Part shown: one piece after another, positions 56,328 to 61,172 of the stretch
How positions within the stretch are numbered: the stretch's first letter is position 1
Layout of the letters: each line of letters opens with the position of its first letter
From: Chthoniobacteraceae bacterium
GTDB lineage: Bacteria; Verrucomicrobiota; Verrucomicrobiia; Chthoniobacterales; Chthoniobacteraceae
Reading direction: 5' to 3'
DNA length: 64,000 bases
Assembly: GCA_947476045.1 (NCBI GenBank)
Contig: CANJNZ010000005.1
Span: forward strand, 1 to 64,000
Program-made: the position numbers and the translations under genes
The notes under the pieces: model-generated
Seen by the model: only the letters and a program-made list of their open reading frames with translations
What the model was told of the DNA's origin: nothing
The model's database searches: none

Positions 56328-56396
56328 CGGCACGGCAAGGACGGTCCCCCAAGGGCTCCGCCGTTGCTCCCAAAACAAACCAAACTCAAGAACAAC

Positions 56397-56942
56397 ATGA
56401 AAAAACTACTATTCACCCTCGCTATCACCCTCGCTTTTGCGTCCACTCCTGCAGCGTTCGCGCAAGCTAAGAAGAAAGCCGCAGCCGCACCTGCTGCCGC
56501 TCCTGCCGCTCCTGCCGCCGCCGCCCCCGCAGCGGAAGCCGCCAAGCCTGCCGAGAAGCCCGCAGCGCCAGCCGCGAAAGCTCCCAAGCCTCTTCCGTTC
56601 AGCTCGACTGCGGATGAAATTGACGCCGCTGGCAAATCTTTCACCCACGCCAATGCCGATGGCAAAAAAGTGAAGAACGTGGTGACCGACAAAACGGAAA
56701 TCAAAAACGGCGAGGCCGCCGCGAAGTTTGAAGACATCAAAGTCGGCGACAAAGTTTCCGGCCTGCGTTTGAAAAAGAATGCCGACGGCACCGAATACGA
56801 AGTGGTGAAGATCACCAAGTTCGCAGCTCCCGCAGCGAAGAAGGCCGACGCTCCTGCTGAAAAGAAGGAGAAGCCAGCGAAGAAGGCCGACAAGGCCGCG
56901 CCAGCCGCTGCTCCTGCTGCTCCTGCTGCTGAAAAGAAGTAA
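56397..56942 (+). CDS. Secreted Ala/Pro/Lys-rich protein with a small central OB-like domain
   Basis: A 181-aa protein from ATG 56397 (MKKLLFTLAITLAFASTPAA, signal peptide ending AFA). The flanks are low-complexity Ala/Pro/Lys repeats, while residues about 65-140 form a folded core with IDAAGKSFTHANADGKKVKN and KVGDKVSGLRLKKNADG. This core resembles the DUF5666 pattern. The basic tails may bind DNA, peptidoglycan or polyanions. It has its own terminator and is probably well expressed. Confidence 0.75.
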   Translation: MKKLLFTLAITLAFASTPAAFAQAKKKAAAAPAAAPAAPAAAAPAAEAAKPAEKPAAPAAKAPKPLPFSSTADEIDAAGKSFTHANADGKKVKNVVTDKTEIKNGEAAAKFEDIKVGDKVSGLRLKKNADGTEYEVVKITKFAAPAAKKADAPAEKKEKPAKKADKAAPAAAPAAPAAEKK

Positions 56943-57150: not shown

Positions 57151-58860
57151 ATGAGCACTGAAACCATCGCAGCAACGACCACCGAGAAGAAGCCAACTCA
57201 CAACGAGGAAATCAAACTCGCCATACCGACACTTGCCGGGACTTTGGCCGCGACGCTCGCAGACCCTGCACTCGACCGTTTTTCAGAGGACGATCAGCAG
57301 TTCATGAAATTCCACGGCATCTACCAGCAGGACGACCGCGACCTTCGCAAGACGGGAAAGAAGTTCATGTTCATGATTCGCGGGCGCATCCCCGGCGGCG
57401 TGCTCCAGCCGAAGGGCTACCTCGTGTATGACCGCCTCGCGACCGAATACGGCAACAACACGCTGCGTCTCACTTCGAGGCAGAGCTTTCAATTTCACGG
57501 CGTTGTGAAAAGCGGACTCGGGCCGCTGATGAAGAAAATCAACGAAGCGATGATGGACACGCTCGCTGCGTGCGGCGACGTGAACCGCAACGTGATGGCT
57601 CCATCCGCCCCGGCGCGCGATGCGCTCGGCCAGCGGTTGCGCGACGATGCCCGGCGCGTGAGCGAGGCGCTGATGCCGAAGACGAAGGCGTATCACTCGA
57701 TCTGGGTCGAGGGCGTTCAGCTCAATCTCGAAGAACCGGAGAACAAAGAGTTCGTAGATCCGCTCTACGGAAAGACGTATCTGCCACGGAAATTCAAAAC
57801 CGCATTTGCGCTCGCGCCAGTCAATGACGTGGATCTTTTCACAAACTGCCTCGGCTATATCGGCATCGCCGATGCGAATGGCGAACTCGCTGGCTACAAC
57901 CTCACCGTCGGAGGCGGCCTCGGTCGCTCGCATGGAAATACGATGACGTATCCGCGTATGGCGGACGTGATCGGCTTTGTGACGCCGGAGCAGCTTGTCG
58001 AGGTTTCACGTGGAGTGCTCACCGTGCATCGCGATTTCGGCGACCGCACAGACCGCAAACACGCGCGCTTGAAGTATATTTTGGAAGAGAAAGGCGCAGC
58101 GTGGTTCCGCGCGGAACTGGAGAGCCGTCTCGGTTACAAGCTGGCAGAGGCGCGTCCGTTTGAGTTCACGAGTCAGAGCGATTCGTTCGGCTGGCACCAG
58201 CAGGCCGACGGGAATCTGTATCTCGGACTTTTCGTGCTCACCGGTCGCATCAAGGACGACGGTGCCTACCGTCTGAAATCCGGCCTGCGCGCCGTTGTGG
58301 AAAAATTCGACCCCGAAGTGCGCCTCACGCCTTCGCAAAACATCGTGCTTTGCAACATCGCGCCCGCTCAGCGCGAGGCCATCACCGCTTTACTCGCCGA
58401 GCACGGCGTGCCGGTTGAGAATCAGGCCACCATCATCCGCCGCGCCAGCATGGCGTGCCCCTCGATGCCCACTTGCGGCCTCGGCCTCGCGGAAAGCGAA
58501 CGCTATTTGCCCGGACTGATGGATCGCATCGAGACGAAGCTCGGATCGCTCGGACTTTCCGACGAAGAAATCGTCATCCGCATGACAGGCTGCCCGAACG
58601 GCTGCGCACGCCCCTACATGGCCGAGATTGGTTTCGTCGGCAAAGGCCCCGGACGCTACCAGCTCTGGCTCGGCGGAAACGTCTCCAGCACCCGCCTCAA
58701 CCGCGTTTACAAAGAGACCGTGAAAGACGCCGAGATGGACGCCGAACTAGGGGCCCTCTTCGAGCGCTGGAAAAACACCCGCATTGGGGCTGAACGCTTT
58801 GGCGACTGGGCCGCGCGCGTCGTCTGGCCCGAAATCGTCGAAACACCCGCTGCGGTTTAA
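57151..58860 (+). CDS. cysI: Assimilatory sulfite reductase hemoprotein (siroheme, Fe-S; CysI/Sir type)
   Basis: A 569-aa enzyme that reduces sulfite to sulfide. The siroheme/4Fe-4S cysteines are in ACPSMPTCGLGLAESERY and MTGCPNGCARPY. SRQSFQFHG, early in the protein, is the siroheme-arginine block. Two ferredoxin-like half-domains repeat over the chain. It could use NADPH-CysJ or ferredoxin; the partner is not visible. The start ATG 57151 has a GGAAAGGGA site upstream. The cysH-like gene at 63666 belongs to the same pathway. Confidence 0.92.
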   Translation: MSTETIAATTTEKKPTHNEEIKLAIPTLAGTLAATLADPALDRFSEDDQQFMKFHGIYQQDDRDLRKTGKKFMFMIRGRIPGGVLQPKGYLVYDRLATEYGNNTLRLTSRQSFQFHGVVKSGLGPLMKKINEAMMDTLAACGDVNRNVMAPSAPARDALGQRLRDDARRVSEALMPKTKAYHSIWVEGVQLNLEEPENKEFVDPLYGKTYLPRKFKTAFALAPVNDVDLFTNCLGYIGIADANGELAGYNLTVGGGLGRSHGNTMTYPRMADVIGFVTPEQLVEVSRGVLTVHRDFGDRTDRKHARLKYILEEKGAAWFRAELESRLGYKLAEARPFEFTSQSDSFGWHQQADGNLYLGLFVLTGRIKDDGAYRLKSGLRAVVEKFDPEVRLTPSQNIVLCNIAPAQREAITALLAEHGVPVENQATIIRRASMACPSMPTCGLGLAESERYLPGLMDRIETKLGSLGLSDEEIVIRMTGCPNGCARPYMAEIGFVGKGPGRYQLWLGGNVSSTRLNRVYKETVKDAEMDAELGALFERWKNTRIGAERFGDWAARVVWPEIVETPAAV

Positions 58861-59009
58861 AACGAGATAATATCGTATAATAACAACGTGGACAACGACA
58901 TGTATTTGTCCATTTAGATATCTTTGAATGTCTAAAAGATGTTGTGTTTTTTTCCGCAACGACAGGTGAAAAATACTCTATTTGGCGCGTTGTAGGCTAA
59001 GAAGAGTGT

Positions 59010-61163
59010 ATGGCCGCAGCAGCGCCAGCCGATTTAGCCCAAATATTCATTCGCACCGAGCCCTTCGATCAGATGTCCTCGGAGCTACGTTCTCGTTTGC
59101 TTTCACAGGCCTCCTCGAAGCGCTTTCTCGAGGGTGAACAATTATTCCCCGAAAACCAGCCACCGGAGGATGTGTGTATCCTTCTCCAGGGTAAGGTGTG
59201 TATTTTTGCTGATTTGCCTGGTGAAAAAGACGCTGTATTTCTGGAAGAACTTGGCCCTGGCGCGTGTGTGGGATGGAACTCTGCACTTTCCGGCACCGTC
59301 GGTTTGAGAGCTTTGGCAACGACAGATGCACTTGGTTTGCTCGTTGCTGCGCCAGCGTTTCTGGAAATGGCCCGCTACGATCCTGTGTTGAAGGAGGCGA
59401 TTTTCAAGAAACCTAGCAAAGGCGAGGTGTGGCACGCGGTGGCTGCGGAAATCGAGCGGCGCAAACTGGGTGTCGGCAGTCTTCGTCAGATTGTGGAAAA
59501 ATTAGTGGATGACTGTGTCGCGCGCGACTGGCCGGAGGATGAAGTATCGATAGAGGTCGATAAGGATCGTATCTGGGTCGTGAGCGGCGGTGAGGGCGTG
59601 AGTCCCGGTGCGCGCTGGAAGGATGACACGGGAGTATTATGGGCGCGACTCATTGGCTTGCCTGCTGAGCGACTTGGCAGGGCGCTGGTAGTGAATCGCG
59701 CAGGCCCGGCTCGTGAGAGCCTGCGGAGTCCGCGAATAAGTTCCGTAAGCAGTGTGAAAAAAAAAGATACGGCCCCCAAAACTTCTGATTCCTCGGAGTT
59801 GGCTGCGGTGAAAGCGCAGAAAGTATCGACACCGAAATGGCGCGGACTATTGCGCATGGCAACCGTCGGAATTTTCGCGCTCTTGTTCCTCCTCGTAGCA
59901 GCGGCCTTTTGGGCTCAGAAACAGCCAGCCATGGAGTCAGTCTCTATTCGAGGAACGCTCGTTTTTTCCGGTGAGAGCCGGAATATTAACGCTGTTTTCG
60001 ATGGCACGCTCATCGAATTGGGCATCCATCCCGGGCAACGTATCGAGCGGGGAGCCACCATCGCTGTCATTCGGCCGATATTTGATGAGGCACGCGCCAA
60101 AGAACTTGTAGAAGCCCGCAATCAGGCGCTGACGCAGGCGGAATTTTGCAACGGAGTAATCTTGGGGCGCCCCGTGAAATGGACAGGTATTCCAGCATCT
60201 CTCGTTGAACTTGCACGTGAGCACGCGGCATTGGTCGGCGAATTACGCGTTCTAAATGCGATTCAGCGCGGCGGTGGAAATATGGCCGACCTCAGCGTGG
60301 AAGAGCGCAAACGAGTTGAGACGTATTTTAGCACACTACGCGAAAACCGGCTCGACCGTGCCAGTTCCGCCTCACGCGATATTGAGGCCCGCAGGGAAGA
60401 TTTACGCGAGGCCGAGGACGCGCTGCGCGAAGCGCAGTCTGAACTACGCGTGCAAAGTGAAGCATACTCGCAGTTGCGTGCTCAAAAAAATGACGATGCC
60501 AGGGAGGAATACTCAGTCGCCCAACGTGCAGTAGCCACGCTGAAACGCGGAGTGAACCAGCGTCAGGAGGTGGTGAATCGTATTCGCAAGGAGATCACTG
60601 CGATGAATGTCTCCAAAGAGCCGATGAAAAAAATCGAGCCGCAGAAAACAGATGCCTTTGAAACTACGAATGCCGCCCTGGCCTCGATCGAAAAACAACT
60701 CAAAAATCAAAGCATTGAGCAGCGCCAGATCGCATCTGAAAATGAGAAAACACTGGCGCAAATGCGGGCGGATAACGCGCCCAGAATCATACAGGCGGCT
60801 CAGCGGGGATTGATCGTAGAGACCAAGCCAATCCCTGCGGGAACATTTGTGCGTTCCGATACTTTTCTCGGGCGTCTCGTTACGCGCCAATCATGGCAGG
60901 TCCAATGTCGCTCAGCACAGGTGGCGCTGCTTCAGCATAGGCAGGCTATGACATTGTTGGTGTCTGGCAGCGATGGCTCCACGATGCGATTGCCGGAGAT
61001 ATTCGATATGGCTCCTGAGGTCGCATCGAAAAACCAAACGATGCTTCGCCTGCAAGCCTCCCGTGATACGTGGCGTGACGGTGCTCCAGTCCGGATCGAG
61101 GCGACTGTGCAGGCCGGCACCCTTATGGATCGTTTGCTGGCTAAAAACGATGTGATGCGCTGA
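59010..61163 (+). CDS. Fusion of cNMP-binding-like domain and HlyD-type membrane-fusion protein
   Basis: A 717-aa protein. Residues about 15-130 resemble the Crp/PKA cNMP-binding fold (RFLEGEQLFPENQPPEDVCI, ILLQGKVCIF) but lack the Glu and Arg of the phosphate-binding cassette. An uncharacterised 140-275 region follows, then one helix (281-302, FALLFLLVAAAFW), a biotinyl-lipoyl-like hairpin (312-355: VFDGTLIELGIHPGQRIERG), and a long coiled coil (about 357-600). The end is a HlyD barrel. ABC or peptidase partners are not found nearby. The gene is poorer in GC than its neighbours. Confidence 0.75.
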   Translation: MAAAAPADLAQIFIRTEPFDQMSSELRSRLLSQASSKRFLEGEQLFPENQPPEDVCILLQGKVCIFADLPGEKDAVFLEELGPGACVGWNSALSGTVGLRALATTDALGLLVAAPAFLEMARYDPVLKEAIFKKPSKGEVWHAVAAEIERRKLGVGSLRQIVEKLVDDCVARDWPEDEVSIEVDKDRIWVVSGGEGVSPGARWKDDTGVLWARLIGLPAERLGRALVVNRAGPARESLRSPRISSVSSVKKKDTAPKTSDSSELAAVKAQKVSTPKWRGLLRMATVGIFALLFLLVAAAFWAQKQPAMESVSIRGTLVFSGESRNINAVFDGTLIELGIHPGQRIERGATIAVIRPIFDEARAKELVEARNQALTQAEFCNGVILGRPVKWTGIPASLVELAREHAALVGELRVLNAIQRGGGNMADLSVEERKRVETYFSTLRENRLDRASSASRDIEARREDLREAEDALREAQSELRVQSEAYSQLRAQKNDDAREEYSVAQRAVATLKRGVNQRQEVVNRIRKEITAMNVSKEPMKKIEPQKTDAFETTNAALASIEKQLKNQSIEQRQIASENEKTLAQMRADNAPRIIQAAQRGLIVETKPIPAGTFVRSDTFLGRLVTRQSWQVQCRSAQVALLQHRQAMTLLVSGSDGSTMRLPEIFDMAPEVASKNQTMLRLQASRDTWRDGAPVRIEATVQAGTLMDRLLAKNDVMR

Positions 61164-61172
61164 GCGTCTGTT

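Follow-up and report, generated by a model that had tools for sequence, protein, structure and literature searches.

A protein joining a cNMP-like domain to a HlyD-type adaptor in a single genus of Chthoniobacteraceae

Introduction

In Nostoc PCC 7120, the cNMP region of HetC is required in vivo, and the N-terminal domain of the protein binds ppGpp with a Kd of 59 µM (PMC10986499). No adaptor gene lies beside hetC in cyanobacteria (PMC10986499). The HlyD adaptor of E. coli can no longer bind TolC after single changes at its tip (PMC3391258). Here we describe a gene of a Chthoniobacteraceae bacterium in which a cNMP-like fold is fused to a HlyD-type adaptor. This combination was proposed in an initial annotation made from the DNA, and the PF00027 match and the structural matches agree on it. 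The window, the whole stretch of 64,000 nucleotides analysed here, comprises positions 1 to 64,000 of contig CANJNZ010000005.1. No description of a cNMP–HlyD fusion was found in searches of open-access papers, and one may have been published elsewhere.

Results

Domain order of the encoded protein

The forward-strand ORF at 59010..61163 of the window encodes a protein of 717 residues (Table 1). An AlphaFold2 model built from a 29-row alignment has a mean pLDDT of 85.9 and contains the cNMP fold, a domain at about residues 137–231, a disordered stretch at 234–279, a TM helix at 282–304, lipoyl halves, a long hairpin and a beta part. Its pTM of 0.43 means that the model does not predict how the domains are placed relative to one another. 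Residues 1–235, modelled separately, reached a pLDDT of 90.2 and a pTM of 0.86. The layout of a membrane fusion protein (MFP), with TM helix, two lipoyl halves, helical hairpin and beta part in this order, was found in the model, in Foldseek matches and in the alignment. Membrane topology is a model-based prediction, in which 281 residues precede the helix, in line with the approximately 280 cytosolic residues given in the initial annotation. No C39 peptidase, ABC membrane domain or ATPase was among the Pfam matches of the protein. In the alignment its C-terminus stops short of the LLGPxxKMKEV-type tail found in relatives.

Table 1. Features of the fusion gene and its upstream region (window positions)
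Feature	Position	Strand	Basis or remark
cNMP / HetC-type linker domain / TM / HlyD fusion, 717 aa	59010..61163	+	ORF; orthologues in 6 further genus genomes; model pLDDT 85.9
cNMP-fold domain, residues 4–136 (Pfam core 37–121)	59019..59417	+	PF00027 E 2.2e-8; Z 16.3 vs PKG CNB-B
Phosphate-binding cassette position, residues 83–106, PGACVGWNSALSGTVGLRALATTD	59256..59327	+	FGE Glu and conserved Arg missing; alignment columns, 17 relatives
Second folded domain, residues 137–231 (WVVSGGEGV..W..LWARLIGLP)	59418..59702	+	In HetC-type exporters sits between cNMP and C39
Disordered variable spacer, residues 232–281, with the presumed junction inside	59703..59852	+	pLDDT <50 at 234–279; segment of highest omega
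Predicted single transmembrane helix, residues 282–304	59853..59921	+	Model helix; aligns with TM helix of exporter-linked HlyDs
First lipoyl / beta part, residues 306–357	59925..60080	+	HlyD_3 E 0.0013 at 326–363; model strands
Periplasmic helical hairpin, residues 360–588, turn near 492–495	60087..60773	+	Model helices; tip differs from exporter-linked HlyDs
Second lipoyl half and shortened beta part, residues 590–717	60777..61160	+	Alignment; model strands
Upstream intergenic region with the same sharp divergence as the gene	58861..59009		Identity to G001 falls from 92–97% to 51–56% at about 58860

The cNMP head and its relation to HetC-type exporters

The Pfam match of PF00027 (cNMP_binding) lies over the gathering cut-off and recurred in a whole-genome search. 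In comparison with PDB structures, VIA-align superposed the domain on PKG CNB-B at 2.4 Å over 129 residues. A non-cNMP fold would have spoken against the fusion; the modelled fold is that of a cNMP domain and the claim stands. The cassette Glu and Arg are missing in the fusion, as the initial annotation had noted, but also in 17 of 17 aligned relatives, and thus their loss is not special to the fusion. Because they are missing in all of these proteins, canonical cNMP binding is unlikely in the fusion and in the 17 relatives alike.

The N half aligned with exporter N-termini over 210 columns in hhalign (P 6.8e-24), and the match thus extends beyond the cNMP domain. The linker domain alone matched the exporters with P 3.2e-5. 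As a control we compared the linker profile with successive stretches covering the entire exporter alignment: the equivalent position gave P 1.3e-5, the overlapping stretch 1.5e-4 and the rest at least 0.01. Within residues 181–218, 15 residues are invariant across the seven fusions; columns before 180 were unscorable (one copy is partial). Fold-search results were filled by the cNMP domain and barely probed residues 137–231. A chance match of the N half was rejected on the PF00027 match, the 210-column alignment and the fold match to PKG CNB-B.

Profiles derived from the fusions ranked the N-termini of same-order exporters (about 890–1010 residues) above other cNMP proteins in the set. The exporter of locus L053, the only one scanned by Pfam, has the order cNMP-C39-ABC. 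Together with the hhalign matches, this bears out the link to peptidase-ABC exporters carrying cNMP domains that had been suggested. The suggested link to NHLM systems did not survive, and NHLM membership was rejected on profile cut-offs: the L053 cNMP-bearing ABC passes TIGR01846 (HlyB-type; 734.8 against a cut-off of 725.55) and lies under the cut-offs of both NHLM ABC profiles (425 vs 853; 410 vs 709), and the fusion itself misses TIGR03794. Among 72,556 plasmid records there were six N-half matches, all cyanobacterial, five of them with an annotation as ABC transporters of the peptidase-domain or toxin-secretion kind. In relatives the operon order is peptidylprolyl isomerase, cNMP-linker-C39-TMD-ATPase exporter and HlyD adaptor, and the annotated order PPIase-exporter-HlyD was seen in two of the opened cyanobacterial plasmid loci. 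In seven operons a one-base overlap joins the exporter stop to the HlyD start, and therefore the fusion would arise if the middle part were lost in frame. The N half of the fusion is very probably of HetC-type origin.

In HetC-like operons of Verrucomicrobiota and Cyanobacteria, the PpiC-type/peptidylprolyl isomerase gene lies immediately upstream (L053 5010–5744, L144 5216–5971 and L146 5168–5902). The L053 isomerase gene has a weak match to TIGR04500 (peptide maturation).

The HlyD half

HlyD-type profiles begin at about residue 283 and all remain under cut-off. TIGR03794 was the best NCBIfam match (E 3.9e-6; 26 bits vs 156.2), and TIGR01843 (E 8e-4; 18.5 vs 208.65) and HlyD_3 (19.9 vs 22.2) also matched. 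In Foldseek the periplasmic part matched EmrA, MacA and HlyD (best E 7.7e-13). With a HlyD profile of the fusions, 13 exporter-linked HlyDs scored E 8e-18 to 1.4e-9 and the other adaptors and MFPs 2.5e-5 or worse; part of this set had been retrieved by querying with the fusion, which biases it towards such loci. Other adaptors of HlyB-type exporters, taken from the same family as controls, gave E 6.6e-4 or worse. A P..I..LA...AAL..E stretch after the first lipoyl half is common to the fusion and the exporter-linked HlyDs. In HlyD trees the fusion branch is very long; with one set it grouped with other MFPs, and with a second set it fell outside all HetC-operon HlyDs. The branching is not settled by the trees because of this long branch, so that descent from a HetC-operon HlyD rests on profile scores, and we rejected the trees as proof of origin for their long branches and conflicting placements.

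A hairpin-tip pattern was present in 13 of 13 HlyDs of same-order operons vs none of seven fusions. Since some ordinary MFPs in the set also lack the pattern, the remodelled tip is only suggestive of changed TolC docking.

Distribution, selection and locus history

The fusion is present in seven of the ten genus genomes, including that of the window, and was not found in three. Full-length orthologues occur in G001 (62% identity) and in G002, G007, G008 and G009 (37–41%), and G006 has a partial copy running off a contig edge. These copies in six other genomes led us to reject an assembly chimera. No match spanning both halves was found in any other of 213 genomes of the order, or outside the genus among 388 genomes drawn from the phylum. 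When 84,980 species were scanned with sequence patterns, only the same genus came up; the patterns were derived from genus sequences, and therefore independent cNMP–HlyD fusions may exist elsewhere. This distribution agrees with the earlier view that the adaptor fusion seems new. A widespread N-terminal extension among HlyDs would have counted against this view; it is absent from the exporter-linked HlyDs that were retrieved from other genera.

The omega of the fusion gene is 0.17–0.20, which indicates purifying selection, and the spacer has 0.36–0.38. Between the window and G001, the fusion gene has a dS of 1.62 (omega 0.17) vs 0.20–0.60 for ten other gene pairs compared. DNA identity to G001 (L047) is 92–97% upstream, about 47–81% over 58860–61170 and mostly 83–97% downstream, and G006 (L052) shows the same divergence step on the 3' side. 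In the comparison of G002 with G007 (dS 0.34, omega 0.20) the gene evolves like its neighbours. That it is AT-richer than its neighbours, as originally remarked, was confirmed by a GC3 of 0.563 vs 0.69–0.74 in nearby genes. GC3 is also low for the locus in five other genomes and not in G008. The simplest reading would be allele replacement at a fixed locus in the subclade of the window. In G002, G007 and G009 (L048, L049 and L051) the fusion has a zinc-ribbon protein on one side and a DUF4407 membrane protein on the other, away from sulfite reductase, and therefore its genomic site varies among subclades.

In G009 (L150 3475–4801), another coding stretch, neither the fusion nor YajQ, lies between sulfite reductase and aldo/keto reductase. 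The window also contains an alanine/lysine-rich ORF of 192 residues with no Pfam match (56364–56942). An Rfam search of the window gave no match.

Search for an exporter or partner

As stated in the initial annotation, no ABC, peptidase or peptide gene adjoins the fusion in the window. No HlyB-type ABC was found at E <= 1e-120 in the ten genus genomes. These are incomplete bins, and therefore the absence of an exporter is strong genus-wide and weaker for each genome. The C39 peptidase-ABC partner that had been looked for was not found in the fusion's own genome, where the two C39 matches lie in frames of 452 and 201 residues, and neither TIGR03794 nor TIGR03797 was matched over cut-off there. 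The same genome encodes many ABC proteins, three of which are full-length exporters. A long C29 frame considered as the missing exporter was rejected: it is an MsbA-like ABC, and its upstream extension looks spurious. No neighbour common to all fusion loci was found. DUF4407, which all ten genus genomes encode whether or not they carry the fusion, and the zinc-ribbon protein were rejected as dedicated partners; only in G002, G007 and G009 are they neighbours of the fusion.

Discussion

Our data establish, at the level of sequence comparison, the two halves of the protein, their tie to exporter operons, conservation, purifying selection and a search that found no HlyB-type exporter. Our tentative explanation, which may be correct, is that the fusion is a chimera of neighbouring parts of a HetC-type operon, repurposed as a membrane-spanning sensor or anchor, and probably no longer a T1SS adaptor. 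The cytosolic regulatory head of an exporter (cNMP plus linker) would have been joined to the adaptor's TM helix and periplasmic body through loss of the intervening C39, membrane and ATPase segments, an event that we infer; no intermediate genome was seen. With the predicted topology, the Crp-like head would lie in the cytosol and the MFP-type body in the periplasm. The head might respond to a cytosolic signal, be it a protein partner or a small molecule other than the canonical ligands, and the signal might be passed on to the periplasmic body, presumably an oligomer. The role in type I secretion would probably have been given up. In a bolder and rather unlikely version, an alarmone-type cytosolic sensor would be wired directly to an MFP ring in the periplasm via one TM helix, as a dismantled type I exporter that has no ATPase and whose alleles are exchanged between species.

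The main rival is that the protein is a working secretion or efflux adaptor for an unlinked inner-membrane transporter, the cytosolic head being a regulatory domain that the transporter lacks. The confidently predicted periplasmic part with its matches to EmrA, MacA and HlyD, the three full-length exporters of the genome and the purifying selection all fit such a role, and a transporter of another class could be the unlinked partner. We nevertheless consider it somewhat unlikely, since neither a HlyB-type nor a C39 ABC was found, the fusion loci have no universally common neighbour and the hairpin tip is remodelled. The origin may also have differed: a HetC-type head could have been captured by an unrelated MFP gene through domain shuffling instead of by loss of the operon middle, with either of the two functions above. 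The long branch of the HlyD half and its grouping with other MFPs in one tree would suit this origin; however, HetC-operon HlyDs top the profile ranking by several orders of magnitude, and relatives have both source genes side by side in the order that the fusion requires, so that domain shuffling appears improbable. A decaying, functionless remnant might be expected from the missing exporter, the atypical GC3 and the three genus genomes in which the fusion was not found, but six genomes keep an open frame of about 700 codons, omega is low and both halves contain invariant residues. We therefore regard decay as very unlikely.

If the chimera explanation is true, the protein is a secretion machine that lost its engine and kept its sensor. 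The fusion may also serve as a Rosetta stone, in which a HetC-type regulatory head is physically tied to a HlyD adaptor. It therefore suggests that the head is near the cytosolic side of the adaptor in intact HetC-like systems.

Among known systems, TIGR03794 of NHLM/NHLP export (TIGR03794, TIGR03796 and TIGR03797) is the best NCBIfam match of the fusion, yet with 26 bits vs 156.2. Crp/Fnr regulators and eukaryotic CNB domains have the same cNMP fold (Z about 14–16), but the fusion differs from them in having no conserved phosphate-binding Glu/Arg and in being a membrane protein. The HlyDs beside HetC-like exporters, which are of TIGR01843 type, share with it the TM helix, lipoyl halves, hairpin and P..I..LA...AAL..E stretch, whereas the fusion lies under every curated HlyD cut-off and has a remodelled tip, a shortened beta part and 281 residues predicted to be cytosolic. 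Where HetC-type exporters continue with C39, membrane domain and ATPase, the fusion has instead a TM helix and a periplasmic adaptor. HetC is its closest characterised relative, compared by published architecture and not by sequence, and both have an N-terminal cNMP domain. In HetC-like exporters, both those from the same order and those on cyanobacterial plasmids, the cNMP domain is followed by the linker as in the fusion.
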